Shown in pieces: positions 46,730 to 64,000 of a stretch of DNA of 64,000 bases. Both the position numbers and the translations under genes were made by a program. Origin of the DNA: Tichowtungia aerotolerans (GTDB lineage Bacteria; Verrucomicrobiota; Kiritimatiellia; Kiritimatiellales; Tichowtungiaceae). Under the pieces are notes generated by a model. It worked only from the letters and a program-made list of their open reading frames with translations. It was not told where the DNA came from and made no database searches. Each line of letters starts with the position of its first letter. The stretch's first letter is position 1. The DNA lies in the NCBI RefSeq assembly GCF_009905215.1, contig NZ_CP047593.1:3228900-3292899 (forward strand), read 5' to 3'.

Positions 46730-46963
46730 ATGAATGTTTTGATTTTTTTGCTGATGGCTGTGAGCTGTGTCGCTTTCGGATCAACAGTGACGACGGCGGA
46801 GTGGAGTTCCGATGCGGATTCCCCGGTGGATGTGGATGGTGTGTACACGCATCTGATTAATCTCGACCCGACGGCGGACAATCTCATCGTCAACAGCCAC
46901 GAGCTGGTTCCCAGTGTCGGAGTCACCAACAACTATACGATTTACCGGGGTTCCAGTGGTTGA
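46730..46963 (+). pseudogene. Short exported fragment, probably truncated
   Basis: 77 aa with a signal peptide (NVLIFLLMAVSCVAFG) and a TAEWSSDADSP start similar in style to the AEW starts of the shared N-terminal module. The frame then stops at YTIYRGSSG, and the sequence after it is occupied by a convergent AraC gene. Most simply the 5' stub of a larger secreted protein; possibly a genuine small protein. Confidence 0.4.
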
Positions 46964-46982: not shown

Positions 46983-47891
46983 TTAGTGGTTTTTTTGGGT
47001 TTCCCGCCAGCGGGATGGCGTGGTGCCTGTGTGCAGGCGGAAACTTTTATAAAAATGTTTATCGTTGCTGTAACCGCAAGTGAGGGCGATGTATTCGACT
47101 TTATATGAGGTGGTTCGTAGCAGTTCCTTAGCTCGTTCGAGTTTCAGGTGAACCAAAAAGTTTTTTGCTGGCATGCCGGTTTCCCTCAGGCAGGCTTGGC
47201 GCAGAGTATTTTGGTTGACATCCATTTTTTTTGCAAGTTCGGTCGTTCCTGGGCATTGATAATCCATTTGTTCGAGTGTTTGCCTTATTTGTCTGGAGTA
47301 GGAGTGTTCTTCTGGTGCCTTTCCAACTTGGTTGATCTCGCAGATTGTTTCAGCAATTGCGGTGATTCGATTGATAAAAAAGTAAGGGTTGTGCGTTTTT
47401 TTTGTCGGCAGGGCTTTCATGATTTCCTGCATGAGATTTCGGATGCGATCTGGCGCATTTCTGACGACAGGATTGTCTGGGCCGTGTCCGATACTGCGCA
47501 TGAAATCTCCGGCTTTTTTTCCATTAAAAGATACAAACATCGACTGATAAAAAGCCCCCTCTAATATGGTCTGGAGGCTGGTGTGCATGCAGTATAAGTC
47601 TCCGGAGTGCACGGTCTGAGGGGGGGATTTGTCAGTGATATATGTCAATTCACCTTTCAGCATGTAAACGAACCCATAGTGTACAGGGAGAAAGGTTCCT
47701 TGTTTTGGCAAGTTTGTGACAATGGATGAATTGATAAAATAGAGATCGTTGTTAAACGGATTTTGCATCTGGAATTCCCCTGCGTTGCTGTGTGTTGAAG
47801 GTGCGGTTAGGTTTTTGATTGTCGGGCATTTGCCCGAATATTTCACAAAGAGAGATGAAAAACCATGCCTGAATTCATACAATCCACCCAT
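46983..47891 (-). CDS. AraC-family transcriptional regulator (second)
   Basis: 302 aa. Cupin-like N-terminal region (LPVHYGFVYMLKGELTYI, HSGDLYCMH). C-terminal double helix-turn-helix: TTELAKKMDVNQNTLRQAC and YIALTCGYSNDKHFYKSF, then HTGTTPSRWRE. A later in-frame ATG at 47768 would remove the first 41 residues; the ATG at 47891 has GGA at suitable distance. Faces the repeat-protein gene at 48216 across a 320-bp gap, which is its most likely target. Confidence 0.82.
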   Translation of the reverse strand: MGGLYEFRHGFSSLFVKYSGKCPTIKNLTAPSTHSNAGEFQMQNPFNNDLYFINSSIVTNLPKQGTFLPVHYGFVYMLKGELTYITDKSPPQTVHSGDLYCMHTSLQTILEGAFYQSMFVSFNGKKAGDFMRSIGHGPDNPVVRNAPDRIRNLMQEIMKALPTKKTHNPYFFINRITAIAETICEINQVGKAPEEHSYSRQIRQTLEQMDYQCPGTTELAKKMDVNQNTLRQACLRETGMPAKNFLVHLKLERAKELLRTTSYKVEYIALTCGYSNDKHFYKSFRLHTGTTPSRWRETQKNH

Positions 47892-48215
47892 GTAAATCCA
47901 GAGAGATTGCGATAGGTTTCAGCGTGGCGGGTATCGGTGGGTTTGACCGGTAAGTCAAGCGGGTTCAGGCTGGGGAAATGCCTCTCGGTTAAAATAATCC
48001 CGGCATTTTTTATTGCCGAAACGGCAGCAGTAATTTCAGGGCCTGAACTGTGGACGACTCGGCGAGTGTTTGCGCGGGCATGAGTTAAGCCGCAAGTCAA
48101 GTGTAGCGGTTTATGATACTTTCTGGAAAGATGAATACCCTTTTCGTGTTGGTTTCAGGATGACCTAAAGTCAGGATGGAGGAGTTGTTATTCTGAATTG
48201 AAAGAAAGGGAAAAG
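47892..48215 (+). other. Intergenic gap between AraC gene and repeat-protein gene
   Basis: 324 bp between divergent genes. A minus-strand frame at 47843-48100 overlaps the start of the AraC gene and has no ribosome site or recognised family; it may be decayed coding sequence. A ribosome-site-like AAAGGG lies just before the 48216 gene. No promoter is clear. Confidence 0.4.
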
Positions 48216-49772
48216 ATGATGAGAAATAAGATAAAAATTATGTGGCAAATAGTTTTCATGCTTGTTGGAAGCAACGCTTTTTCTGCTTCGCTGGCGGAGT
48301 GGAATTCCGACGGCTACAACCTGAATGGAGGTTTTGCCAGTCATCCGAACTGGTATGCCGCAAACGCTGCGGAAGGTGTGGATGCCGGTCAGGCTGTTGC
48401 GAAACTCGATGAAACCAAGTTTTCTGCCTCCTATTATGCTGATACGGCTCGAATGACGTATAAGCTGCAGAATATTATCAGCATGGACACGAGCCGTTAT
48501 ATAGAGGTGTTTATTGCGCCGGGTGAAGACCGTCGTTTGAGCATTACCAACATTTCATTTAACTTATACACTCCGGATACTGGATCGGGACATGTTGCCG
48601 TGCGTTCGAGCCTGGATGCTTTTAGCTCTGATATTGCAGTGGAAGAACTGACCCTAGGCGGCAATAACAGGGTGAATGTAGATCTCAGCTCATTCTCGGG
48701 ATTCAGCAGAGTAGATTCTCTCGTTGAATTTCGCATTTATCTGTGGGGGGCTACTGGCGCACAAACTGCATGGCTTCAGAACAGTTCAGGAGGGAATTCG
48801 ATTCAGATTGACGGTGCGGTTGTTTTGAAGCCTTTGGCGGAATGGAATTCTGACGGTTACAATCTGAATGGAGGGTTTGCCAGTCATCCGAACTGGTATG
48901 CCACTAACGTTGTGGAGGGTGTGGATGCCGGTCAGGCTGTTGCGAAACTCGATGAAACCAAGTTTTCTGCCTCCTATTATGCTGATACGGCTCGAATGAC
49001 ATATAAGCTGCAGAATACTTCTGATATGGATACCAATCGGTACATACAGGTGTTTATTGCGCCGGATGCCGACCGGCGTTTAAGCATTACAAGTATTTCG
49101 CTCAGTCTATATAGCTCAGCGGCCGGAGCAGGACATGTTGCCGTGCGTTCGAGTCTGGATGCTTTCGGTTCTGATATCGCGGTGGAAGAACTGATCCTCG
49201 ACAGCAATAATAGGGTGAATGTGGATTTCCTCTCTTTTCCTGAGTTTAACAGTGTAGGTTCTTGTGTTGAATTTCGCATTTACCTGTGGGGGGCTGCCGG
49301 CGCACAAACCGCATGGCTTCAGAACGGTTCTGAAGGGAATTCAATTCAGATTGACGGGACTACTGATTATAAACCCAACTATTCCAATTGGATTCAAACA
49401 TTTTCAGTCGGAGATGCGACTAATTATACAGACAATGCCGACGGTGATCGGCTCGATAACCTTTCCGAATATGCACTTGGCGGAGATCCGGGTAACCCGG
49501 ACGACTCTCCATCGATTTTTCCAATGTTTGGAAAAACCCAAGAGGGAGAGTTTATGGAATATGTTTATCGACGCCGGTCTGATTATGAAACGCGGGGATT
49601 GGGATATTCCGTTGAGCTGACGGACAACCTGATTTCCAATGTTTGGGAATCTGCGGTTGATGTAGAGGTCGGTATAGGGACGGTGGATGAGGGATTTGAG
49701 TCGGTAACCAACCGAATTCCAATGGTCGGAAAATCCCGGCAGATGATTCGTTTGCTCATAGAAATGGAATAA
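48216..49772 (+). CDS. Secreted protein with two LAEW..EFRIYLWGA modules
   Basis: 518 aa from ATG 48216 (or 48219), after AAAGGG. Signal peptide ends near NAFSAS. Two tandem copies of a module of about 181 residues follow. Each starts LAEWNSDGYNLNGGF, has MTYKLQN, VAVRSSLDAF and FRIYLWGATGAQTAW (or AAGAQTAW), and ends in SIQIDG. The C-terminal 120 residues are the shared domain (DNADGDRLDNLSEYALGGDP, YRRRSDYE). The module recurs in the GH89, GH20 and 59774 proteins, so it may bind glycan or cell surface. Copies are nearly identical in DNA over about 100 bp. Three palindrome copies lie in the 3' part. Confidence 0.75.
   Translation: MMRNKIKIMWQIVFMLVGSNAFSASLAEWNSDGYNLNGGFASHPNWYAANAAEGVDAGQAVAKLDETKFSASYYADTARMTYKLQNIISMDTSRYIEVFIAPGEDRRLSITNISFNLYTPDTGSGHVAVRSSLDAFSSDIAVEELTLGGNNRVNVDLSSFSGFSRVDSLVEFRIYLWGATGAQTAWLQNSSGGNSIQIDGAVVLKPLAEWNSDGYNLNGGFASHPNWYATNVVEGVDAGQAVAKLDETKFSASYYADTARMTYKLQNTSDMDTNRYIQVFIAPDADRRLSITSISLSLYSSAAGAGHVAVRSSLDAFGSDIAVEELILDSNNRVNVDFLSFPEFNSVGSCVEFRIYLWGAAGAQTAWLQNGSEGNSIQIDGTTDYKPNYSNWIQTFSVGDATNYTDNADGDRLDNLSEYALGGDPGNPDDSPSIFPMFGKTQEGEFMEYVYRRRSDYETRGLGYSVELTDNLISNVWESAVDVEVGIGTVDEGFESVTNRIPMVGKSRQMIRLLIEME
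48375..48474 (+). repeat. Internal tandem duplication, copy 1
   Basis: Bases 48375-48474 match 48918-49017 with one difference (48458/49001), a spacing of 543 bp or 181 codons. This is the best-conserved part of two tandem protein modules and shows recent duplication or gene conversion. Confidence 0.85.
48918..49017 (+). repeat. Internal tandem duplication, copy 2
   Basis: Second copy of the block at 48375-48474, identical except for one base. Confidence 0.85.
49517..49535. repeat. Dispersed palindrome, perfect copy in repeat-protein gene
   Basis: TTTTCCAA-TGT-TTGGAAAA, perfect. Encodes IFPMFGKT. Confidence 0.9.
49633..49649. repeat. Dispersed palindrome, variant in repeat-protein gene
   Basis: TTTCCAA-TGT-TTGGGAA, one mismatch, about 115 bp after the perfect copy; a poorer third copy (ATTCCAA-TGG-TCGGAAA) follows at 49716-49732. 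Confidence 0.7.
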
Positions 49773-49840
49773 GGATTGATTGATTTTGCGTTGCTGGCGG
49801 AGAGCCGGCTTAGAACTAGACATTGATAAGGAAGTATTGA

Positions 49841-52800
49841 ATGAAAATGCGTGTGGTTTCTGTCCTGCTGGTACAGATGGGATTATTGGCTTTGTTTGCG
49901 GGTGTGAGTGCGGAACAGCTGGCGGCTTGGAGCGCCGAGTCGCTGTCTGGCGGATTTAGCGTGCATCCGCGGTGGAACGTATCAGTGGCTGGGCCGGGAG
50001 TTGATGCTTCTAATTCTTTTGCGCAATTGGACGGGCGTTTAACGAATACAACCTATTATTCGCATCCGCACTTTATGACCTATTATCTTCAAAATACGGG
50101 TCAGATGCAGGAGGATCGCTATATTCAGGTTTTTCTGGCTCCCCGAAATGGCGCAGAGCTGGCTCTTGGCAGCATTTCATTCAATGTTTATTCCTCCCGA
50201 AACGGTGCGAAGAAAGCTGCGGTTCGGTTTAGTGCGGACCAATTTTCTGCCAATCTTGTAGAAGTTAATCTGCTTCCCTCAACGCATAATTGCGTCCGGA
50301 TAGGACTGGAAGATTTTCCAGAGATGAATAGCATAAGCCAGCCGGTTGAATTCCGGTTGTATTTGTGGGATTCTCAGGGCGCTCAGGTGGGAGTGTTGAA
50401 AGATGCTCCCGACAGAACTCCCGCTATCGAAATCTGCGGGACTGTGAACAACACGGAATCTTTACAGACAAATGATGTTGTAAGGGCTGCCAAGGCAGTC
50501 TTGGAGCGAAACTTCGGTTCGTTTGCGGACAGAGTCCTCCTGAAGTGGAAAGAGGGCATTGGCCCGAATTCTTCGACGGCGTTTCAGTTTGAATCCACCA
50601 ACGGCGTGTTAACGGTTTGGGGAGAAACGTCCCTTGCGTTGTGTAGCGGAGTCAGTTGGTACTTGAAACATTATGCGAATTCTCAGGTTTGCCGGATTAC
50701 AGGTGTGAATAATCTGCCGGATAGTCTGCCGGATGCATCTTTTGAAGAGCATGTCTCTCCATACCATTACGTCAGTATGTACAATTATTGCACGTTTGGT
50801 TATTCGATGCCTTGGTGGGACTGGAGCCGGTGGGAGCAGGAGATTGACTGGATGGCGTTGAACGGAGTGAACCATCCTCTTGCCATGGTGGGAGCGGAAG
50901 CGGTTTGGATCCACACGTTGGAACAATTTGGTTATACGCACGATGAAGCAAAGGAGTATGTCTGCGGTCCTGCGCATCTTCCCTGGTTTTTGATGGGAAA
51001 TCTGGAAGAGGTCGGAGGTCCGTTGCCGGAATCGTGGATTAATCAGCGCATTGAATTACAGAAAAAAATAATCGAGCGGATGCATGAACTTGGCATGTCT
51101 CCTGTTTTGCAAGGGTATGTGGGGTTGGTTCCAACAACATTTTCCGAGAGATATCCTGACGCTCCGATTACGCATCAGGGACAATGGTTCGGGATGGAAC
51201 GTCCCAGTGTTTTGGATCCTAGATCAGAGCTGTTTAAGGAGATTGCGGCGGTATGGTATGAGGAGAGTGAAAAACTGTTTGGTTCCGTTAAATATTATGC
51301 CGGTGATTTGTTTCATGAGGGAGGTATTCGAAAAGGGGCGGACCTGAAAAAATATGCCGAAGCAATTCAAGGTGCAATGCTTGCTGCAAATCCTGATTCG
51401 GTTTGGGAATTGCAGGGGTGGGGCAACAATCCGTCCGGATATCTGTTGGAAGGATGCGATCCATCGCATACATTGATCGTTTCACTGGGAGAGGATTATT
51501 TCCGTAACTGGGAAAAGCGTAAAGGATTTGGCGAATTTCCGTGGGTATGGACTTATATTCTGAACTACGGTGGAAATGTCGGATTGCACGGACGCCTGGA
51601 TTGGATTGCCGAAGAACCTCCGTTAGTTCTGGAAAACGAAAACGTCGGAAAGTTTCTTAAGGGAATCGGTCAGACTTCGGAAGGAACATTATGTAATCCT
51701 GTCGTGAACGACCTCTTGTCTGATATGGTTTGGAGAAAGACGGCTCCGGATATGGCGAATTGGCTGGATGGTTATATTTGTCGACGTTATGGGCAAATTC
51801 TTCCTGCGGCTCAGAAAGCCTGGAAATTGCTTTATCATTCCTCCTATGGAAGTTATGGGCAGCAGGGAAACCGGGAAGGGAACCGGCGCACGCCGGAGTC
51901 GATATTTTGTGCTCGTCCTAGGTTGTCACCGCCTTTACGCGGAGCCTCTCTTCCCGGCCGGTTACGGCGGTATTATGATGTCAGAATGACAGCCCAGGCT
52001 GCTCGGCTGCTCTATGAGTGCTCCGACCGGTATTCTCACAGTGATGCGTATCGATATGATCTTGTGGATGTGACTAGGCAGGCCCTGTGCGATTTTGCAT
52101 TGACTCTGTTTGGAGATATGTCTCGGGCGATTGATGAGAAGAACGACGTTGAGTTTGAAAAAAACAGTGGATTGTTCTTAGAACTGTTAAGCGATCAGGA
52201 CCGGTTGCTTAAAACGCGCGATGAATTTTTGTTGGGTCGGTGGATTGATGATGCCCGTTCATGGGGGAAGGATTCCAGAGAACAAGATTTCTTTGAATAT
52301 AATGCCCGCATGCTGGTAACCACTTGGTATCCGTTTAAAGGAATCTTAAACGACTATTCGCACCGGGAGTGGTCTGGTCTGTTAGATGGGTTTTACAGGA
52401 AACGGTGGGAACTTTTCCAATCGTGGGGTGCTGCAAAAATTCGAGGTGAAAATCCTCCGGACCCGGATTATGTGGCATTAGAGCTGGGCTGGTTGAAAGG
52501 GCGCGAGACATACCCTTCGGTGGCTTCAGGGGATGAAGTTCAGGAAGTGGGTCGTATTTTAGACAGGTGGGAAACCTTGCTGATGGATGTCCCGCAGCCT
52601 TTTTATCGTGCCCGCTCTTCGAATGATTTTTGTGGAGCCTGGTATTATCGGGATAAAACTGGGGAGCGATCGCTTTATTGTGCGGACTTCCAGCCGGACG
52701 GAATGCTCGTGGTGCATGCGGAAGAGCTTGGCAGCGTACAGAAGTTTAAATGGAAATATGAGGAGGAAGACGGGAGCGCTGTAGTATATGACAACGAAGG

Positions 52801-52903
52801 TCAGGAAGTTGAGCGTTGCTACTTAGGTGGTCACAACACGCTTTTGTTTTCAGTTGCCTCAAAAGGCCCGGCTACGCAAAAGGCTGAAGATCAACGTTGG
52901 TAA
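49841..52903 (+). CDS. Secreted GH89 alpha-N-acetylglucosaminidase with N-terminal module
   Basis: 1020 aa with a signal peptide (RVVSVLLVQMGLLALFAGVSA). Residues 28-205 are one copy of the module seen in the 48216 protein (LAAWSAESLSGGF, FRLYLWDSQGAQ). Residues 210-900 or so are a GH89 NAGLU enzyme: YNYCTFGYSMPWWDW, WMALNGVNHPLAMVG, YYAGDLFHEGG (E493) and IGQTSEGT (E614), the two Glu aligning by context with the catalytic pair of human NAGLU. It removes alpha-linked GlcNAc, as found in heparan sulfate and some mucin glycans. Stands between a repeat protein carrying its N-terminal module and a sulfatase. Confidence 0.9.
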   Translation: MKMRVVSVLLVQMGLLALFAGVSAEQLAAWSAESLSGGFSVHPRWNVSVAGPGVDASNSFAQLDGRLTNTTYYSHPHFMTYYLQNTGQMQEDRYIQVFLAPRNGAELALGSISFNVYSSRNGAKKAAVRFSADQFSANLVEVNLLPSTHNCVRIGLEDFPEMNSISQPVEFRLYLWDSQGAQVGVLKDAPDRTPAIEICGTVNNTESLQTNDVVRAAKAVLERNFGSFADRVLLKWKEGIGPNSSTAFQFESTNGVLTVWGETSLALCSGVSWYLKHYANSQVCRITGVNNLPDSLPDASFEEHVSPYHYVSMYNYCTFGYSMPWWDWSRWEQEIDWMALNGVNHPLAMVGAEAVWIHTLEQFGYTHDEAKEYVCGPAHLPWFLMGNLEEVGGPLPESWINQRIELQKKIIERMHELGMSPVLQGYVGLVPTTFSERYPDAPITHQGQWFGMERPSVLDPRSELFKEIAAVWYEESEKLFGSVKYYAGDLFHEGGIRKGADLKKYAEAIQGAMLAANPDSVWELQGWGNNPSGYLLEGCDPSHTLIVSLGEDYFRNWEKRKGFGEFPWVWTYILNYGGNVGLHGRLDWIAEEPPLVLENENVGKFLKGIGQTSEGTLCNPVVNDLLSDMVWRKTAPDMANWLDGYICRRYGQILPAAQKAWKLLYHSSYGSYGQQGNREGNRRTPESIFCARPRLSPPLRGASLPGRLRRYYDVRMTAQAARLLYECSDRYSHSDAYRYDLVDVTRQALCDFALTLFGDMSRAIDEKNDVEFEKNSGLFLELLSDQDRLLKTRDEFLLGRWIDDARSWGKDSREQDFFEYNARMLVTTWYPFKGILNDYSHREWSGLLDGFYRKRWELFQSWGAAKIRGENPPDPDYVALELGWLKGRETYPSVASGDEVQEVGRILDRWETLLMDVPQPFYRARSSNDFCGAWYYRDKTGERSLYCADFQPDGMLVVHAEELGSVQKFKWKYEEEDGSAVVYDNEGQEVERCYLGGHNTLLFSVASKGPATQKAEDQRW

Positions 52904-52938
52904 TAGTGCCCGTAGCAGATATTTGAAGGGAATTTGAT

Positions 52939-54486
52939 ATGAAGCGGAGGGATTTTATAGGGATAGGTTCGATAGCTGGGGTTGCGTGTGCTGCAAAGAG
53001 GACGAATACGTTCGGTTTTTCAACTGGCGGGAACGATGAACGCCCCGATGTTCTGTTGATTATGCCAGATCAAATGCGCGGCGATTGTTTGTCGGCTCTG
53101 AGCCATCCTGTAGTAAGGACGCCGACTCTGAATAAACTCGCGTCTGAGGGCGCCTTGTTTGAACGGGCGTATGCAACGGTTCCATCTTGTATTCCCGCAC
53201 GATATGCAATGTTGACCGGTTTGTCCCCGCAAAGTAGCGGTGTGGTGGGGTTTGCTGCAAAAACAATCACGACGCCGACTCTCCCTGACGTGTTGGCCAG
53301 TCATGGGTATTCCACGGTGCTTGTTGGGCGGAATATGCATCAAAAGAAGGAGAGTGGTACTTGTGGATATCAAAAAAATATCTTGGGTTCCACTTATGTA
53401 AGCAATGATGAATACGACCGTTTTCTGAGGCGGGAAGCTCCGGAAAGCGGAGGAATCAGAAAACTTATTCGTTCGTCCGGTAACGATGTTAATCTGTGGT
53501 TGGCCAGTTCGTGGCCGCTGAATGATGATTTGCATCCGACGACATGGACCGTTGCGCGGTCTAAAGACGTTATTCGCAATGAGTCGCCAGATAAGCCGCT
53601 CTTCCTGACGACTTCATTTTATTCGCCGCACCCTCCATTGTTTTCGCCAAAAAAATATTTTAATCGGCACATGGCTTCGATATTGCCGGGGCCGGCTAGG
53701 GGGGATTGGGTGGATTGGGATGCAGTACCTTCAGAAGGCACACCACCCTACACCCGCATATGGTTTTCCGGCGAGCGATGCAGGCGTGCACAGGCCGGTT
53801 ATTTCGGTTTGATCGAGCAGATCGATACGGAAATTGACTCGTTAATCCGACAGTTCAAAGAGCGAAGCGAAAAAGCTGGAAGACCGTGGGTGATTGTTTT
53901 TACAAGCGATCATGGTGAAATGCTCTTTGATCATGGATATTTCAGGAAATGTGAACCCTATCAAGGGGCTGCAAATATCCCGTTTATCATTGCAGCCTCT
54001 CCAGAGATGGGATTAGAGCATGGATTACGGAATCGGCAGCCGGTTTGCCTTGAAGATATTATGCCGACGGTTTTGGCTTTGGCCGGCGTGCGGGCTCCAT
54101 CCTGTGTCGATGGCACGAACCTGGTTCCCGTCTTGAGAGGCAAGCGTCAAAACATCCGTGAAGTGCTTCATTTTGAGCACGCCAGATGTTACAGCGATGA
54201 GCAGGAGTTTCATGCTTTAACGGATGGTCGGTATAAATATATTTGGCGCCCTGCCACGGGAAGAGAGCAACTCTTTGACCTTGATCATGATCCTTCTGAA
54301 ATAAACGACCTTTCTCTGGCCGATAGTTCCACCGAACAGCTTGAAATGTGGAGAAAACGGCTGATAAAAAGACTTGAGGGCCGCCCGGAAGGATTTGTGC
54401 AGAATGGAGAACTCGTTACGGGTCGGCCGTATCCGCCGCTGAACCGGACGACTCCTCTATTTGAGAATGAGGCATCCACAAGGTGA
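52939..54486 (+). CDS. Tat-exported sulfatase (FGly type, CIPAR)
   Basis: 515 aa with a twin-arginine signal (MKRRDFIGIGSIAG). Tat export sets it and its paralogue at 63506 apart from the four other sulfatases here. Motifs: PDVLLIMPDQMRGDC, formylglycine C84-IPARYAMLTGLSP, FTSDHGEMLFDHG. Of the S1 family, branch with MPDQMRGD; substrate not deducible. Starting exactly at the C84 codon, 137 bp are identical to the paralogue at the window end. Confidence 0.9.
   Translation: MKRRDFIGIGSIAGVACAAKRTNTFGFSTGGNDERPDVLLIMPDQMRGDCLSALSHPVVRTPTLNKLASEGALFERAYATVPSCIPARYAMLTGLSPQSSGVVGFAAKTITTPTLPDVLASHGYSTVLVGRNMHQKKESGTCGYQKNILGSTYVSNDEYDRFLRREAPESGGIRKLIRSSGNDVNLWLASSWPLNDDLHPTTWTVARSKDVIRNESPDKPLFLTTSFYSPHPPLFSPKKYFNRHMASILPGPARGDWVDWDAVPSEGTPPYTRIWFSGERCRRAQAGYFGLIEQIDTEIDSLIRQFKERSEKAGRPWVIVFTSDHGEMLFDHGYFRKCEPYQGAANIPFIIAASPEMGLEHGLRNRQPVCLEDIMPTVLALAGVRAPSCVDGTNLVPVLRGKRQNIREVLHFEHARCYSDEQEFHALTDGRYKYIWRPATGREQLFDLDHDPSEINDLSLADSSTEQLEMWRKRLIKRLEGRPEGFVQNGELVTGRPYPPLNRTTPLFENEASTR
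53188..53324 (+). repeat. Identical block shared by two sulfatase genes, copy 1
   Basis: 137 bp identical to 63752-63888. It begins at the catalytic Cys codon. Flanking sequence of the two genes is clearly diverged, so the block looks like gene conversion. Confidence 0.85.
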
Positions 54487-55417: not shown

Positions 55418-55550
55418 GTCGAAATTGCAAATAAAAGTGTGCAAAGTGCAAATGTTATGTTATTTAATTTATCTTTTTGACTGGGATAATGGTTTGAAAA
55501 TTAAGAGCGGGTTTGCGGGGATAGAGAGCCTCTGAAGCAGCTCTGGAAAA
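55418..55550 (+). repeat. Duplicated regulatory segment, copy 1 (AraC-55566 gap)
   Basis: Bases 55418-55520 match 59628-59730 with two differences in 103 bp. Similarity continues with small gaps to about 55550/59758. It contains the GCAAA repeats, a GATAAT at 55485-55490, and the leader up to the ribosome site of the downstream gene. The segment lies between the AraC gene and the start of the repeat-protein gene. Confidence 0.9.
55427..55452 (+). promoter_or_regulatory. Candidate AraC operator with direct GCAAA repeats
   Basis: GCAAA occurs at 55427, 55441 and 55448 in the same orientation, spaced 14 and 7 bp. Direct repeats are the usual form of AraC-family sites. The likely -10 (GATAAT, 55485-55490) has no good -35, which fits an activator-dependent promoter. 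The same arrangement is kept at 59637-59662 in the second copy. Confidence 0.5.
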
Positions 55551-55565
55551 TGAAGGAGTGATAAA

Positions 55566-57332
55566 ATGTATACGAAAATAACAACAGTTGTCGGATGGCT
55601 GGCGATGGCCTGCCTGAGCTTTGGCGGTACCGTTGTGCTGCAGGACGATTTTTCGTTCGGCAGCGGAGACCGGTCCGCCATTGCAGACGGGGACCTGGTG
55701 GAGGGAACCCTGATTCAGGACGGGGATGTGGCATGGTCGAAAGCCCAGTGGGCCCGCCCCATGGAGTTTCATCAAACGGCCGGTGGAGACCAAGTGATGG
55801 CTGGTGTTGTCGGCAAAGGCGGCGGGCAGATGTCGGTTCCTTTTGACGCAGGCAGTGTGTCGGGAATTATGACCGCGTCCGTGAATGCCAAACTGACGGA
55901 TATGATGAAAAATGCTTATACGCCCGGCTTTTCGATTTCTTTTACTACTGCTACCTCTGATTTGTCGGTTAATGCAAAAACAGCAGATTCGCTTTCGATG
56001 CGCTTTGATCCGTTTTCCGGCGTGATACAGGTTCGAACCGGATATGCCGCGGATTCGACCGAGAATCCGGTTTTGATCGGCTCAAGCACGTTTGCAAATT
56101 ACAACAGCAACAATGTTGTGAACCTTTCTCTCTCCTACAACACCATTTCCGGCGAGATCAATGCAACGGTGACGGATACGGTTACCGACGAAAGCGCAGC
56201 CTTCACCCAGACCCTGTCGGTATCGGATTTCCTGATTATTACCAATATGGATACGGTTGCTCTGGAGGTAACGACGTTTAACAATCCGTACACAGGGTCA
56301 ACCCCGGCGTATTTTGACGATTTTGAGGTGAGCGTTGCGTATATGGATACTACCTTCCTTCAGGATAATTTTTCGTTCGGCAGCGGTGAGCGGTCTGCTG
56401 TTACCAATGGTTCTCTGGTTGACGGAACAACCCTCCAGTATGGGCACGTGGCGTGGGAAACGGCCCACGGGGCCCGTCCCATGCAGTTCTTTGAAACGAC
56501 GGGCGGGAAGCAGGTCATGGCCGGTATTCCCGGGAAATCCGGAGGGCAGATGGCTGTGCCGTATAACTTTGGCAGTGTCACCGGACTCGTGAGCGCTTCC
56601 GTGGATGCCAAATTGACGGATATGGTCAAAGATGCTTGGACTCCCGGCTTTTCGATTTCCTTTACCACGGCTACGGATGCCTTATCTGTCAGTGCCAAGA
56701 CCGCAGATTCGCTTTCCATGCGCTTCAATCCGTTTACAGGCCTGGTTCAGGTCCGAACCGGTTACTCGGAAGATTCGACCGTGAGCCCGGTTATGATCGG
56801 GGGAGGCACCTTTGAGAACTATAACAGCAACAACATTGTAAAGCTCAAGCTTTCCTATGCCGCCGACTCCGGGGAGATTATTGCAACCGTTTCGGATACG
56901 GTTACGGGGGACAGTTATACGTATACCAAAACCCTCGCAGAGACCAATCAGCTGAATCTGGCGAACATGAATACAGTGGCTCTGGAAATGACGACGTTTG
57001 ACAGCACCTATACGGGATCGGAACCGGCATATTTTGACGACTTTCAGGTTCAGATTCCCGGCAGCATTATCAATCCCCGGATTGTTTCCATGGAGATGGC
57101 GTCGGACAGCCTGCTCAAACTGGTTGTGGCTCTCGACGGTGCAGACCCGGACAGCTTCTTGCCGGTTCGGTGCGATGATCTGGTGTCCGGATCATGGGCT
57201 TCCGTGGCGCATGCAGACAGTGTCAGCAATTCGCTGGTTTTCACCAATCTTTCCTATGCAACCGTAGAGGGCACAAACCATCTTATTTATGTGTCGGCTA
57301 CAAATTCATCGGCCTTCTTCACGGTTGAGTAA
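55566..57332 (+). CDS. Secreted two-module beta-sandwich repeat protein
   Basis: 588 aa with a signal peptide (YTKITTVVGWLAMACLSFGG) and AAGGAG ribosome site. Two copies of a module of 240 residues, offset exactly 720 bp: each starts with QD(D/N)FSFGSG(D/E)RSA, has TPGFSISFTTAT, ADSLSMRF, VQVRTGY and ends PAYFDDF. The fold looks like a concanavalin-type sandwich. The last 90 residues differ from the DPDGDG domain of the other repeat proteins. No catalytic motif seen. Possibly a glycan-binding surface protein controlled by the divergent AraC regulator. Confidence 0.72.
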   Translation: MYTKITTVVGWLAMACLSFGGTVVLQDDFSFGSGDRSAIADGDLVEGTLIQDGDVAWSKAQWARPMEFHQTAGGDQVMAGVVGKGGGQMSVPFDAGSVSGIMTASVNAKLTDMMKNAYTPGFSISFTTATSDLSVNAKTADSLSMRFDPFSGVIQVRTGYAADSTENPVLIGSSTFANYNSNNVVNLSLSYNTISGEINATVTDTVTDESAAFTQTLSVSDFLIITNMDTVALEVTTFNNPYTGSTPAYFDDFEVSVAYMDTTFLQDNFSFGSGERSAVTNGSLVDGTTLQYGHVAWETAHGARPMQFFETTGGKQVMAGIPGKSGGQMAVPYNFGSVTGLVSASVDAKLTDMVKDAWTPGFSISFTTATDALSVSAKTADSLSMRFNPFTGLVQVRTGYSEDSTVSPVMIGGGTFENYNSNNIVKLKLSYAADSGEIIATVSDTVTGDSYTYTKTLAETNQLNLANMNTVALEMTTFDSTYTGSEPAYFDDFQVQIPGSIINPRIVSMEMASDSLLKLVVALDGADPDSFLPVRCDDLVSGSWASVAHADSVSNSLVFTNLSYATVEGTNHLIYVSATNSSAFFTVE

Positions 57333-57341
57333 CTCCTTGAA

Positions 57342-57375
57342 AACCTGCCGGAGGTTTAAAACTCTCCGGTAGGTT
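57342..57375 (+). terminator. Hairpin after the 55566 gene
   Basis: AACCTGCCGGAG (57342-57353) pairs with CTCCGGTAGGTT (57364-57375), 12 bp with one G-U, 10-nt loop. Only three T follow, so termination may be weak and part of the transcript may run on into the GH20 gene. Confidence 0.6.
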
Positions 57376-57423
57376 TGTACCGGCGGAGTGTCGGGTGAAA
57401 ATGAAAAAGTAGTGATGTGTGTA

Positions 57424-59526
57424 ATGAGAAATATCCATAAGTCGATGATCTGTATGCTCGCGAGTCTGATGATTCCGGTGCTGGCATTTTCTGAGTTTGA
57501 GGACCGCCTGAAGGAATTGATTCCGGTTCCCAAGACTGTTTCGGTTCAGGAGCAGATCGTTGCGATTCCGGCCGCGTCTGACGTGCTGCAGATCGTCGAT
57601 CCGAAAGTAGCCGCGTTTCGCAGTGCTGTGGAGATGATTCGTGTTCGGCTTCAGCAGGGTCAGCAGCGTTTTTCCGTTGTTGATGAATCTGCGGGCGGCT
57701 CCACTGTGCTGATGTTTCAGAAAGATGACGGGCTGGCTCCTGAGGAATACCGGCTGGTTGTTTCGCAGAACGGCATGGTCGTATCGGCGGCTGACGAGAA
57801 AGGGATTGCATGGGCCGGGGTGACGCTGGAGCAGCTGCTGGGGTCTCTCCGTTCCGGTGATTCGCTTCCGGAGATGACGCTTGCGGACCGGCCGGATCAG
57901 GCGTACCGGGGAATTATGATTGATGTGGCCCGGCAGCCGCATCCGATCGGGGTGATCCGCGATGTGGTTCAGCTCTGCCGCTGGTATAAACTCGGTTATC
58001 TGCACATTCACTTTACCGATTCTCAGCTGTGGACACTGCCTTCGACAAAGTATCCCGCGCTGTCCGCCGAGAACACTACTTATACCAAACGTGAGCTCGA
58101 AGAGCTGGAGGCGTTTGCCCGGTCTATGGGTGTCACCATTGTTCCGGAGTTCGATGTGCCGGGTCACAGCTATGCGCTGATCCGGCTGATGCCGGAGCTC
58201 GGAACCCGAACCGCCGCGCGCGGGCGCCCTGTGCTGGATGTGTTAAGTGATAGAACTTATGAGGTTCTCGATGACCTGATCGGTGAACTTTGCGAAATTT
58301 TTGAGTCCACTCCGTACATTCATCTGGGTGCGGATGAAGTGAAGCGCGAAAAAGAGATCTGGCCGCAGATGGAAGGCTATAACCTCTTCCTGCAGAAGAA
58401 CGGGCTTGCGGATGTCGAGGAGCTGTACCGTTATTTTGTGCGCAGGGTCTCGCTGCTGATTTCAGCTCACGGGAAGACCCCGGTCGCATGGGAGGGCGTC
58501 GCTGCGGAAGGGAATCCAGCCATGCCGCCGGAGCTCACGATGATGTCGTATGAGTGCTATTATGAAATGCCTGGGGCATATATTGAAAATGGGCACAATG
58601 TTATTAATACCACCTGGGTTCCGCTGTATATCACCAATCGTCGTCATCCGGACCTGACGGCAATCTACGATTGGGAACTCAGTCAATGGGGACACTGGTG
58701 GCCGAAGTCGGCCGCGAAGGACGGGCTGTCCGTAAAGCCGACCGACCGGATTCTGGGCGGTCAGATTTGTGCGTGGGAGCTTCCGGCGGCACTGGAAATC
58801 AAACTGCTGCGCAACCGTGCCGGTGTTCTGGGTGAGCGGTTGTGGAACGATCGGCGGTCTCTTTCTGCAGAAGAGTGCATTGGTGCGGTCGAAGGGTTGA
58901 CGGAAACATTTGTCAAAACGCATACGCTGAGCCCGGTAACCCGGGAGGCGTTGAGCCAAGCGAAGGATTCGTCCGAGCCGCCGGTCTTTCAGGAAAAGAT
59001 GATGGACCGTTTTGAGGGGTCGGATATTCGCAACTGGCAGGTTGGCGGTGCCGGAACGGGCGTGGCGCTGACGAGCGATGTTGTTTACTCCGGCAACGAA
59101 AGCCTAGCGGTGCAGTTCAGTACGCCGGGAAAGGGAACGCACAATATCAGCCTGTGGACCCGTCTGGATGATATTCAGGTTGCCGGGGTGGAATATCATT
59201 TTCTGGCAGCAACGGATACGGGTGCCGGGGCCGTTTATACAAAAGTGCGCATGCGTTCCAAAAAACCGCAGAAGCAGTATGCGTTGAAGTTTTATTCCGA
59301 ACTCTTCAAACAGAAGTTGCCGGTTTATCCGTCTGCATCGCTGGAGAGTGCTGCATGGCAGATCTATGATACATCGCTGCCAGGTGACGTTTCCAAGGTT
59401 TTGCCGGAAGGGGATGTGTTGCCGGCGCCGGTGGTTGACCGGCTGGAAATTCTGATTCGTGTAACGACAGAAACTGCACAAACGGGCACGATCTATCTAG
59501 ATGACCTGAAGATCACTACTCCTTAA
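57424..59526 (+). CDS. Secreted GH20 beta-N-acetylhexosaminidase
   Basis: 700 aa from the ATG at 57424, the start giving a compact signal peptide (RNIHKSMICMLASLMIPVLAFS); a GTG at 57388 with GGCGGAG upstream is an alternative. Residues 25-150 are the GH20b-like domain. The catalytic barrel (about 150-490) has YRGIMIDVARQPHP, LGYLHIHFTDSQLWTLPS, VPEFDVPGHSYAL and the Asp-Glu pair in HLGADEVKRE (about residues 303-304). Residues 520-700 form a beta-sandwich (MDRFEGSDI...IYLDDLKI). Removes terminal beta-GlcNAc or GalNAc. The neighbouring sulfatases suggest sulfated substrates. Confidence 0.9.
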   Translation: MRNIHKSMICMLASLMIPVLAFSEFEDRLKELIPVPKTVSVQEQIVAIPAASDVLQIVDPKVAAFRSAVEMIRVRLQQGQQRFSVVDESAGGSTVLMFQKDDGLAPEEYRLVVSQNGMVVSAADEKGIAWAGVTLEQLLGSLRSGDSLPEMTLADRPDQAYRGIMIDVARQPHPIGVIRDVVQLCRWYKLGYLHIHFTDSQLWTLPSTKYPALSAENTTYTKRELEELEAFARSMGVTIVPEFDVPGHSYALIRLMPELGTRTAARGRPVLDVLSDRTYEVLDDLIGELCEIFESTPYIHLGADEVKREKEIWPQMEGYNLFLQKNGLADVEELYRYFVRRVSLLISAHGKTPVAWEGVAAEGNPAMPPELTMMSYECYYEMPGAYIENGHNVINTTWVPLYITNRRHPDLTAIYDWELSQWGHWWPKSAAKDGLSVKPTDRILGGQICAWELPAALEIKLLRNRAGVLGERLWNDRRSLSAEECIGAVEGLTETFVKTHTLSPVTREALSQAKDSSEPPVFQEKMMDRFEGSDIRNWQVGGAGTGVALTSDVVYSGNESLAVQFSTPGKGTHNISLWTRLDDIQVAGVEYHFLAATDTGAGAVYTKVRMRSKKPQKQYALKFYSELFKQKLPVYPSASLESAAWQIYDTSLPGDVSKVLPEGDVLPAPVVDRLEILIRVTTETAQTGTIYLDDLKITTP

Positions 59527-59544
59527 AATATATAGAGAAAACGT

Positions 59545-59630
59545 ATGATACAGCTGAGTACATTGGACTGGTCCATCATCGGCATGTTTTTTGTCGTTGT
59601 GATTGGCCTCGGGATGCCTAGCCTTGTGTC
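59545..59630 (+). pseudogene. Truncated sodium:solute symporter, N-terminal remnant
   Basis: About 28 codons resemble the start of SSS-family symporters (LSTLDWSIIGMFFVVVIGLG), with ATG 18 bp after the GH20 stop. The frame then runs into the copied regulatory segment and ends at 59757. The join lies at 59628. It looks like a transporter gene cut off when the segment arrived. The remnant is short, so the family call is tentative. Confidence 0.5.
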
Positions 59631-59758
59631 GAAATTGCAAATAAAAGTGAGCAAAGTGCAAATGTTATGTTATTTAATTTATCTTTTTGACTGGGATAAT
59701 AGTTTGAAAATTAAGAGCGGGTTTGCGGGGACAGGAGCCTCTGAACCAGCTCTGTAAA
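59628..59758 (+). repeat. Duplicated regulatory segment, copy 2
   Basis: Copy of 55418-55550. It joins the symporter remnant at its left end and leads into the 59774 gene on its right. The GCAAA repeats and the GATAAT box are kept. The only changes in the first 103 bp are T to A at 59650 and G to A at 59701. Confidence 0.9.
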
Positions 59759-59773
59759 AAGAGGACGGGAAAT

Positions 59774-61348
59774 ATGAATATATACATTACAAATAAGGTT
59801 GGAAAACTGGCAGGTTTGATCTGTTTATTACTGATGACAGTGCCTTCCGGTTTTGGGGAACTCCTTGTGACGTGGAGTACCGAAGGATTAAATGGAGGGT
59901 TTGCTGCTAATTCTGTGTGGAACACAGACTTTGCGCACGGCGGAATGGTCAGTAATCAAACGGTTGCAACGCTGGATGGAAGTGACTGGTCGGCAGCGGC
60001 GGCAGGCATGACCGGGTCGCCTCAAAATAATCCAGCTCTTTCTTCAGGCCGATATATGAAGATCATTATTACCCCGGAGGATGGCCAGTCGGTAACATTA
60101 ACGAATATGATGATGAATATTTATTCTGAAACTGCCACGGATCGGGGGTATGAGGGATCTGTTAAAGTTGCATTGCGCTCCAGTATAGACAACTTTTCCA
60201 GTAACATTGGAGGTGCTGATTATATTACGTTGACACGAGGGGAGGATAATTCAGTTTCGTGGGAGTTGGGGGCAAACTTTAATAGACTTGAATCTTCAAT
60301 AGAATTTCGGGTGTATCTGTGGGGGGCCACAACATGGGGGCTGGCCTATCCAAAAGATGTTTCTGGAAATAATGCCATCTCTGTTTATGGAACAACGGCA
60401 CCAGAATATACAATCGCATCATGGAGTACTGATGGATTGAGCGGAGGGTTTGTTGATAATCCTGTGTGGAACTCGGACTTCGTGCATGACGGGGTGGCCA
60501 GCAATCAAACGTTCGCGTCGTTGGATGGAAGCGACTGGTCTGCGGCGGCGAAAAAAATGACAGGGGCTCCTCAAAATAACCCGGCTTTATCAGCCTCTCG
60601 GTATATGAAAATGGTTATGACCCCGCTGGGGCAAAAAATTACGTTTTCGAGCATATTAATGAATATCTACTCGCAGACCAATACGGTGGATGGTTCTGAT
60701 GGAGCGGTGAAAATCGCATTGCGTTCCAGTGTAGATAATTTTTCCAACAATATAGGCGGTGAGAATTACATTACGTTAACAAGGGGCCAGAACAATAAGG
60801 TTACTTGGATTTTGGATTCCAGTTTCAGCGAAATTGAATCGCCGATTGAATTTCGGGTTTATCTCTGGGGGGCCGTAAGTTGGGGGATCGCATACCCTTT
60901 AGATTCGGGAACAGATGCAATTTCAGTTTACGGGATAACCTCTCCGGGATCTTTTTCCAGTTATGCAGATTGGGCCAATCAATGGGGCGGAACCAACATA
61001 ATTGGTTCTGAAGTTGCCGATTACGATGGCGACGGGGTAAACAATCTTTACGAGTACGGACTAGGCGGGGATCCGACCGATGAGTTAGTTCAAGGAACAT
61101 CCCCCCAGTTTGACATTCTGGCTTTGGATGGAACCAATGTGTGTAATTATGTTTATCCGCAGCGGTCTGGTTACCCGAATGGACTGGCTTATTCCCTTGC
61201 TGTGTCAACAAATCTCTTAGGAAATTGGGAAACCAATGCGGGATACCAGGTGACGGGGACGAATGTGACGGGTGGAGTATTGGATTTTGTTACCAATACT
61301 TTAGATACCGTGAATAAACAGAAATTCATTCGTCTGATTATTGAGTAA
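59774..61348 (+). CDS. Secreted protein with two W-S-GL-GGF modules
   Basis: 524 aa from the ATG at 59774, after GAGG. Signal peptide to PSGFGE. Two copies of the module shared with the 48216 protein, offset 549 bp: TWSTEGLNGGF and SWSTDGLSGGF starts, LDGSDWSAAA, VKVALRSSIDNFSSNIGG (or VKIALRSSVDNFSNNIGG) and EFRVYLWGA. The C-terminal domain has DYDGDGVNNLYEYGLGGDP and a closing KFIRLIIE. Its promoter region is the copied segment at 59628-59758, so it is probably under the 54553 AraC regulator. Confidence 0.75.
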   Translation: MNIYITNKVGKLAGLICLLLMTVPSGFGELLVTWSTEGLNGGFAANSVWNTDFAHGGMVSNQTVATLDGSDWSAAAAGMTGSPQNNPALSSGRYMKIIITPEDGQSVTLTNMMMNIYSETATDRGYEGSVKVALRSSIDNFSSNIGGADYITLTRGEDNSVSWELGANFNRLESSIEFRVYLWGATTWGLAYPKDVSGNNAISVYGTTAPEYTIASWSTDGLSGGFVDNPVWNSDFVHDGVASNQTFASLDGSDWSAAAKKMTGAPQNNPALSASRYMKMVMTPLGQKITFSSILMNIYSQTNTVDGSDGAVKIALRSSVDNFSNNIGGENYITLTRGQNNKVTWILDSSFSEIESPIEFRVYLWGAVSWGIAYPLDSGTDAISVYGITSPGSFSSYADWANQWGGTNIIGSEVADYDGDGVNNLYEYGLGGDPTDELVQGTSPQFDILALDGTNVCNYVYPQRSGYPNGLAYSLAVSTNLLGNWETNAGYQVTGTNVTGGVLDFVTNTLDTVNKQKFIRLIIE

Positions 61349-61445: not shown

Positions 61446-63491
61446 ATGAAGAAGATATTAATAGCGGGAATGATTGTCGTGACAGCGATCTCTTTCAGAT
61501 GTCAGGCGGATCTTTTGGCAGAATGGCATACTTCTGGTCTGCCCGGTGGTTTTAAGTTGAATTCAGTGTGGAAGCCTGTGGTCGCGGCAAGAATCGATAA
61601 GAATAAGAGCCGGATCAAGCTAGATGAGACGAAGCTTAAAACAGGATACGGTAGACACGCTTCTCGGATGACCTTTTTTTCTCAAAATACCGGTTCTTTA
61701 GCCATAAATCGTTATTTGCAACTTCAGATCGCTCCTGTTCCCGGGGCAACGATGGCTCTGGACAGATTGGTTTTAAATGTTAAATCAGCGGTTGGGGATG
61801 GTGCTGAAAAAATCGCTGTGAGATCCAGTGTGGATAACTTTTCAAAAAACTTGCTAGCTACCGATCTGGTTCGAGGGGAAGAGAAAACCATTCGTTTAGA
61901 GCTCGCTGAGTTTGATGGTATAGAATCTGTTGTTGAATTTAGAATTTATTTTTGGAGGGCGACCAAGTGGGGATGTGGATATCTGGAGGATTTAACAACA
62001 GGGGAAGGTGCTGTCCAGATTTTCGGGAAAGTCAACTCGACAACCAATGATGCTGTGTTATTGCAATCTGATGTTGGCGTGAGCCAGCACAGCTTAATTC
62101 CTTGGCCGAAAGAAATATCATTTGGTTCTGGGATGTTGGAGGTGAAAAGTGGAACGAGCATCTGTATTCAAAATAACAAAATCCAGCCGTTAGCTGAAGT
62201 TTTCCAAAAAGAGTTGGCTCATTTGTTTGGATTGGATTTGGCAATTATAAGAAAGGTAGGGTCTCGCGGCGATGTGTTACTTGAGATTGATCCGATGCTG
62301 GAAGAGACTCAGTACCGGATTATAATAAATGATCAGGTGGTTGTAAAAGGGGGGAGTTATTCAGCTCTGGCATTCGGGACTGTAACCGTGGGGCAGTTGA
62401 TGGAGCAGGAAAAAGCCGGCGGTTCTGTTCAGCTTTCGAAGGCTGTCATAACCGATTCTCCCGATTGTTCGTATCGAGGTCTAATGGTTGATTTGGCAAG
62501 AAAATGGCATCCTGTGGATGCGGTCAAACAACTTGTTGATTTATGTCGCTGGTATAAAATCAATTATCTCCACCTTCATTTCACAGATAATCAATCGTGG
62601 ACTTTACCTTCAAAAATTCAACCAATGGTTTCGACGCCGGCAAGACATTATACTTTTAGTGAATTGTATGAGTTGGAACATTATGCAAGTTCACGTGGCG
62701 TTACAATTGTTCCAGAGATAGACGTTCCAGGGCACTCCCGAGCTTTAATTCAGGCATTGCCGGATTATGTGGCAATTAGTCATCAGCCATGGTCGGCCAT
62801 TTCCGCAGGTCGAGAAGAAGCCTATGATTTGTTGGATGAATTGATTGGTGAAGTGTGTGAAATCTTTTCTTCTACCCCTTATTTTCATATTGGTGCAGAT
62901 GAAGTGAAATTTGAGGAGTGGGAGAGGGATGAGTTCGCTATGGAATATATGAAAAAGAACGGCATAGAAGACCTTCACGATTTATATCACCATTTCATTG
63001 TCCGGATGAATGAAATTGTAAAGAGTCACGGGAAGCAAACGATTGTTTGGGAGGGATTTAAGTTGGGGGGGCGGACTGATATTCCGAAGGATGTCATTGT
63101 AATGCCGTTCGAGTCATATTACGAAGATCCACGACAGCTTGCTCAGGAAGGATATACCATCATTAATACCAGTTGGAAGCCTCTTTATATTGTCAATAAG
63201 CGTCGGTGGAGTCCCGAAGAGATCTATCAGTGGAATATTTACCGGTGGGAAAATTGGAGTTCAAAATCACTTGCCATAAATGGTCTGGAAGTGTCTGAGA
63301 AGGCTAATGTGATTGGTGCGCAAATTTGCGCTTGGGAACAGTCGGCAGAAGCAGAAATTCCAAGCATACGAAAACGTCTAGCTGCACTGAGTGAACGAGT
63401 CTGGAATATTTATCCTTCCAAGCCAGTCGAGGATTTCCTGTCTCGGCTTGATGTGTTGGATCACCGTTTTTCTTTATTAAATAATCAATAA
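61446..63491 (+). CDS. Secreted GH20 beta-N-acetylhexosaminidase with N-terminal module
   Basis: 681 aa from the ATG at 61446 (AGGTGGGAT upstream); earlier in-frame starts read through the hairpin and lack a signal peptide. Signal peptide KKILIAGMIVVTAISFRCQA. Residues 22-205 are one copy of the shared module (LLAEWHTSGLPGGF, VRSSVDNFSKN, EFRIYFWRA). The GH20 domain follows: YRGLMVDLARKWHP, INYLHLHFTDNQSWTLPS, VPEIDVPGHSRAL and catalytic Asp-Glu in HIGADEVKFE (about residue 484). It ends soon after the barrel, without the sandwich of the first GH20 enzyme. Acts on terminal beta-N-acetylhexosamine. Confidence 0.9.
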   Translation: MKKILIAGMIVVTAISFRCQADLLAEWHTSGLPGGFKLNSVWKPVVAARIDKNKSRIKLDETKLKTGYGRHASRMTFFSQNTGSLAINRYLQLQIAPVPGATMALDRLVLNVKSAVGDGAEKIAVRSSVDNFSKNLLATDLVRGEEKTIRLELAEFDGIESVVEFRIYFWRATKWGCGYLEDLTTGEGAVQIFGKVNSTTNDAVLLQSDVGVSQHSLIPWPKEISFGSGMLEVKSGTSICIQNNKIQPLAEVFQKELAHLFGLDLAIIRKVGSRGDVLLEIDPMLEETQYRIIINDQVVVKGGSYSALAFGTVTVGQLMEQEKAGGSVQLSKAVITDSPDCSYRGLMVDLARKWHPVDAVKQLVDLCRWYKINYLHLHFTDNQSWTLPSKIQPMVSTPARHYTFSELYELEHYASSRGVTIVPEIDVPGHSRALIQALPDYVAISHQPWSAISAGREEAYDLLDELIGEVCEIFSSTPYFHIGADEVKFEEWERDEFAMEYMKKNGIEDLHDLYHHFIVRMNEIVKSHGKQTIVWEGFKLGGRTDIPKDVIVMPFESYYEDPRQLAQEGYTIINTSWKPLYIVNKRRWSPEEIYQWNIYRWENWSSKSLAINGLEVSEKANVIGAQICAWEQSAEAEIPSIRKRLAALSERVWNIYPSKPVEDFLSRLDVLDHRFSLLNNQ

Positions 63492-63505: not shown

Positions 63506-64000
63506 ATGCAAAGAAGAGATTTTGTAAAAACAGGTTCTGTTGCAGGGTTGGTGTATGCGGTAGGAGGGGATGTTTTTGGGGGTGTTGCGGGTAGGAGCAA
63601 TAGACAGCCCAATATTCTACTGATTATGCCGGACCAGATGCGTGGCGATTGTTTGTCGGTTCTGAGTCATCCTGTGGTAAAGACGCCGACTTTGGATAAG
63701 CTCGCGTCTGATGGAGTCCTGTTTGAACGAGCGTATGCAACGGTTCCATCCTGTATTCCCGCACGATATGCAATGTTGACCGGTTTGTCCCCGCAAAGTA
63801 GCGGTGTGGTGGGGTTTGCTGCAAAAACAATCACGACGCCGACTCTCCCTGACGTGTTGGCCAGTCATGGGTATTCCACGGTGCTTGTCGGACGGAATAT
63901 GCATCAAAGGCCGGAGAGTGGAACCTGCGGATATCAAAAGAACATCTTGGGCTCCACCTATGAAGAAAATGATGACTACGACCGTTTTCTGAGGCGAGAA
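63506..64000 (+). CDS. Tat-exported sulfatase (CIPAR), 5' part only
   Basis: Partial: the frame stays open to the last base, 165 codons visible. ATG at 63506 preceded by AAAGGAAC. Twin-arginine signal MQRRDFVKTGSVAG, then PNILLIMPDQMRGDC and formylglycine site CIPARYAMLTGLSP, as in the 52939 gene. It continues past GRNMHQ and is clearly the paralogue, with 137 bp identical from the catalytic Cys codon on. Confidence 0.88.
   Translation, partial: MQRRDFVKTGSVAGLVYAVGGDVFGGVAGRSNRQPNILLIMPDQMRGDCLSVLSHPVVKTPTLDKLASDGVLFERAYATVPSCIPARYAMLTGLSPQSSGVVGFAAKTITTPTLPDVLASHGYSTVLVGRNMHQRPESGTCGYQKNILGSTYEENDDYDRFLRRE
63752..63888 (+). repeat. Identical block shared by two sulfatase genes, copy 2
   Basis: Identical to 53188-53324; see that copy. 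The Cys codon of the CIPAR site opens the block. Confidence 0.85.

Follow-up and report, generated by a model that had tools for sequence, protein, structure and literature searches.

Likely duplication of a putative AraC-dependent promoter within a polysaccharide-degradation locus of Tichowtungia aerotolerans

We analyzed a stretch of 64,000 nucleotides from the genome of Tichowtungia aerotolerans (the window) and the genes that follow directly past its end. The locus is a sugar-degradation gene cluster, in which S48, NAGLU, and sulfatase A (sulA) are followed by an AraC-family regulator on the opposite strand, the segment op, P55, GH20A, a symporter stub, the segment op', P59, GH20B, and sulfatase B (sulB) (Table 1). 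Past the window, an intact sodium:solute symporter starts 101 bp behind sulfatase B, and more sulfatases come after it. The co-occurrence of NAGLU, SGSH-like sulfatases, and GH20 families suggests that the cluster degrades a sulfated N-acetylhexosamine glycan, e.g., heparan sulfate. No match to P55 was found in Pfam or NCBIfam.

Table 1 Features of the locus. Positions are those of the window; the prefix L019 marks the numbering of the neighboring locus that extends past position 64000.
Feature	Position	Strand	Basis or remark
Sulfatase A (sulA)	52939-54486		
AraC-family regulator, 280 aa, divergent from P55	54553-55395	-	Pfam HTH_AraC 3.8e-22, HTH_18 4.1e-22, AraC_binding 2e-10
op, promoter/operator-like segment, copy 1	55418-55553	+	identity to op', two copies genome-wide
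Predicted AraC site in op, TGCAAA-N15-TGCAAA enclosing a third GCAAA	55426-55452	+	sequence; predicted binding
Extended -10-like element TGGGATAAT in op	55482-55490	+	sequence; putative function
P55, secreted protein with a 720-bp internal duplication	55566-57332	+	
GH20A, family 20 glycoside hydrolase, complete	57424-59526	+	Pfam Glyco_hydro_20 1.5e-50; likely start, longest frame from 57388
Sodium:solute symporter 5' stub, 24 codons, broken off before op'	59545-59616	+	66.7% aa identity to codons 1-24 of the intact symporter
op', promoter/operator-like segment, copy 2	59628-59762	+	identity to op, two copies genome-wide
Predicted AraC site in op'	59636-59662	+	sequence; predicted binding
Extended -10-like element TGGGATAAT in op'	59692-59700	+	sequence; putative function
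P59, secreted two-repeat protein, related to S48	59774-61348	+	32% over 545 aa to S48 (48198)
GH20B, family 20 glycoside hydrolase	61446-63491	+	Pfam 1.2e-63; likely start, longest frame from 61341
Sulfatase B (sulB)	63506-65041 (L019:406-1941)	+	window ends at 64000
GH20A-like C-terminal relic, 14 codons, between sulfatase B and the intact symporter	L019:1985-2026		
Intact symporter of the stub's family	65143-67041 (L019:2043-3941)	as sulfatase B	Pfam SSF 4.8e-34

S48, P55, and P59 share a layout of two tandem domain copies of about 180-240 aa each. At the DNA level, the two copies are 84% identical in S48 (48292-49357), 71% in P55 (55638-57049), and 69% in P59 (59873-60939). The repeat domain of these three proteins had no Pfam match; the S48/P59-type domain also makes up the N-terminus of NAGLU and GH20B.

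We compared GC3 across the locus using percentiles from a sample of 194 genes in 400 kb of this genome. Two AT-rich modules of similar design (two-repeat secreted protein, enzyme, and sulfatase) lie inside a cluster of ordinary composition. Values are low in P59 (0.446, 5th percentile), GH20B (0.408, 3rd percentile), and sulB (9th percentile), as well as in AraC-b, S48, NAGLU, and sulA (5th-10th percentile). In contrast, the group of ordinary composition spans the 47th-88th percentile overall and comprises AraC (0.616, 57th percentile), P55 (47th), GH20A (60th), the symporter (86th), and the sulfatases behind it. The low GC3 of the genes at the 3rd-10th percentile suggests a foreign origin but does not prove it. 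The module formed by AraC-b, S48, NAGLU, and sulA (46983-54486) has its own AraC gene. Just ahead of it ends a 77-codon frame with a signal-peptide-like start (46730-46963), which matched no family and is possibly a truncated secreted-protein gene at the left edge of the module.

The segments op and op' lie 4.2 kb apart and are 94.9% identical across 136 bp (E 8e-57 in a search against the window). Their ungapped core, the first 107 bp, is 97% identical with three differences. Beyond the core, op' is one base short, and the similarity fades at the ribosome-binding site. The preliminary description had rightly noticed the segment twice, although it gave the repeat a core of 103 bp with two differences. 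op spans nearly the whole intergenic region between AraC and P55, and op' ends just before the start codon of P59. In the entire 3.88-Mb genome, op and op' are the sole copies, and all remaining matches have E > 0.07. Nothing like op was found in the genomes of 57 relatives or in plasmid and phage collections, and an Rfam search of the segment returned nothing above threshold. A mobile or common intergenic repeat without a regulatory role would fit the position of both copies in non-coding DNA, but such an element is highly improbable given two copies only, no Rfam family, no occurrence in the relatives, plasmids, and phages, and an open reading frame directly behind each copy. The idea of a common repeat unrelated to AraC genes is contradicted by the copy number. 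An error of assembly is scarcely credible: nothing but the repeat itself speaks for it, whereas the genome is a single 3.88-Mb contig, the copies differ at several positions, and their flanks are unlike.

Both copies carry the features that had been described for them, namely three GCAAA boxes (55427, 55441, and 55448 in op; 59637, 59651, and 59658 in op') and a GATAAT (55485 and 59695). Neither copy has a good -35 when spacings of 15 to 19 are considered. The outer two boxes are exactly 21 bp apart in each copy. AraC-type activators usually bind direct half-sites 21 bp apart, and op has direct repeats at about this distance beside a weak -35. The regulator has an N-terminal ligand-binding domain (AraC_binding, PF02311) and a C-terminal double helix-turn-helix domain (HTH_18 and two HTH_AraC stretches). 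In this respect, the arrangement resembles an araBAD-like system of an AraC/XylS activator, with a divergent regulator gene that has its own ligand-binding domain and 21-bp-spaced direct repeats just upstream of a weak -35. It differs from such a system in its motif, TGCAAAT, and in that two copies of one promoter appear to share a single regulator. The exact three-box pattern had no further match genome-wide, and the triple GCAAA was absent from the intergenic region of an AraC paralogue (39%, locus L037). Judged by its layout, op would be an activator-dependent promoter placed between the divergent AraC gene and its target, with predicted binding and activity.

At the left join of op', a symporter-like frame starting at 59545 is broken off, as the preliminary description had stated. 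The likeness to symporters extends through codon 24 (59616) and is gone before op' starts at 59628. That description took the promoter to have been gained at the cost of the transporter, a part that does not hold, since an intact gene follows sulfatase B in the same direction. This gene is complete, and at E <= 1e-30 the genome has no other of its kind. We counted the differences between the stub and other symporters over 54 bases and found 17 to the cluster's own symporter and 12 and 15 to two Pontiella-type symporters. Third codon positions carry 9-11 of the differences in each comparison (one-sided P 0.002-0.008 versus an even spread), in a small sample of 54-72 bases. The stub therefore looks like part of a gene that worked until recently, and it does not resemble the intact symporter more than it does those of Pontiella, which indicates that a second symporter was lost. 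By its sequence, the stub is evidently what remains of that second symporter, not of the only one. The two symporters had apparently diverged already before the truncation, as far as so small a sample can suggest.

A counterpart of this joint lies at the other end of the module. The GH20-like relic precedes the intact symporter, so the event was larger than the copying of a promoter. The two GH20-tail/symporter-head junctions (from 59485 on and from L019:1985 on) are identical at 84 of 110 bases (76%). op'-P59-GH20B-sulB is therefore flanked by two versions of one junction, both of which are cut short towards the module. In the GH20 relic, six of the nine differences are at third codon positions (P 0.04). 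Because of this third-position bias, the relics on both sides look recently truncated, albeit in a small sample. Searches at the thresholds used recovered neither the body of the lost symporter nor that of the lost GH20-like gene from the rest of the genome.

The op pair has 3% substitutions compared with about 22% at the junction pair (Fisher P 1.6e-5). Since the op copies are 97% identical and the flanking junctions only 76%, no single simple duplication explains everything; op' is a younger copy, or was homogenised, or is under strong constraint. This difference bears on a tandem duplication reaching from op to codon 24 of the symporter, with an intermediate of op-P55-GH20A-symporter stub followed by op'-P55'-GH20A'-symporter, in which P59-GH20B-sulB later replaced all of P55'-GH20A' but the last codons. 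One such event would account at once for the joint of stub and op' and for the second pair of GH20 tail and symporter, and illegitimate duplications of this type with promoter capture are documented in E. coli (PMC11111574). We nevertheless consider it unlikely: divergence is 24% between the junction copies and 3% within the op pair, the stub is at least as similar to the Pontiella symporters as to the cluster's own symporter, and its differences favor third positions, as in a gene that was functional until recently.

Homogenisation within the locus is visible in the sulfatases. sulA and sulB are 92% identical overall, with alternating tracts of 98-100% and 82-87% identity, and their homology ends sharply at 54470/65034. 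The longest identical run, 214 bp, was reached in none of 2000 permutations. The mosaic is, on the sequence evidence, attributable to gene conversion, with the two sulfatase genes acting as direct repeats at a distance of 10.6 kb. The alternating tracts are those of gene conversion between paralogues in one locus, whereas for op/op', which group with the homogenised tracts, conversion is just one possible explanation. It is rather doubtful that the conversion homogenising the sulfatases also keeps op and op' alike, so that one AraC is held over two polysaccharide operons by concerted promoter evolution. If true, the regulatory link would be kept by recombination as well as selection.

Conversion would also be needed if a deletion fused two neighboring operons. 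op' would then always have been the promoter of the P59 unit, its own AraC and most of the first symporter would have been deleted, and conversion would keep op and op' alike. In agreement with this, op' starts where, judged by copy 1, an AraC start codon would be only 23 bp away, both flanking relics look recently truncated, and gene conversion is active elsewhere in the locus. This too seems improbable, because no relic of a second AraC was seen. Moreover, P55 and P59 have no similarity detectable by sequence comparison and differ in composition, so the AraC-P55 and P59 units are not simple paralogues.

Our preferred interpretation, with a probability of roughly 0.55 for its working and origin together, is that op is an AraC-dependent promoter and that its copy op' rewires an AT-rich, foreign-looking module at a rearranged GH20/symporter junction; promoter duplication by itself is likely. 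op would be the promoter region of the AraC-P55-GH20A unit. AraC would bind the direct TGCAAAT repeats, which are 21 bp apart and immediately precede the weak -35 region, and would recruit RNA polymerase to the TGGGATAAT element. The second copy now precedes P59-GH20B-sulB; the intact symporter and additional sulfatases come next in the same orientation, and the operon may extend into these. Given the near-identical op' before P59-GH20B-sulB, both units are probably activated by a single AraC protein. Recombination within the locus likely put P59-GH20B-sulB and a copy of op between a pair of paralogous GH20-tail/symporter-head junctions, so that one symporter and one GH20-like gene were truncated while a complete symporter survived downstream. 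The op copies would either stem from a recent duplication or be older, with gene conversion keeping them similar. As for the direction and order of events, op' may have arisen by tandem duplication or as a local copy, or may be an old promoter kept by conversion.

The promoter capture put forward in the preliminary description is supported in part, without the transporter cost: a copy of a resident, putative promoter, found nowhere else in the genome, precedes a module of different composition and ends just before the P59 start, as would be expected of promoter capture. There is ample documentation of promoters captured through deletions or tandem duplications (PMC11111574), so this kind of event is already known. 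As in the published cases, a resident promoter stands before a different, apparently foreign gene, and a neighboring gene is truncated at the joint. Unlike in those cases, the promoter is retained at both sites, a specific regulator (AraC) is involved, the copied segment is bounded by new joints at either end, and the event itself is deduced instead of observed. We interpret the locus as an ordinary promoter duplication that indicates no new mechanism. As a natural example, it lets one read how an existing regulator can come to govern an enzyme module newly acquired by a polysaccharide-degradation locus, with the joints, the relics, and the contrast in composition preserved.

Neither the 346 genomes of the class nor a symporter scan contained a relative with this synteny or the ancestral order. 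No close counterpart of AraC, P55, or GH20A was found in the same 346 genomes, and a scan for GH20A in 84,980 species genomes, based on short exact peptides that reach close relatives only, found no relative. Elsewhere in the class, the genes around GH20B and sulfatase homologues did not share the module. In the two nearest of the 80 loci returned by the symporter scan, those of Pontiella sulfatireligans and Pontiellaceae B12227 (82-83%), the genes around the symporter are ordered differently.

An 80% match of the stub region at L019:2427 was dismissed as chance, as it lies inside the intact symporter and not at its start. At the stub/op' joint, GTCGAAA is a candidate shared microhomology. The filler of about 42 bp from sulfatase B to the GH20 relic (L019:1943-1984) contains a 20-bp near-palindrome around ATTATAATGG, and this filler may include a promoter for the symporter.
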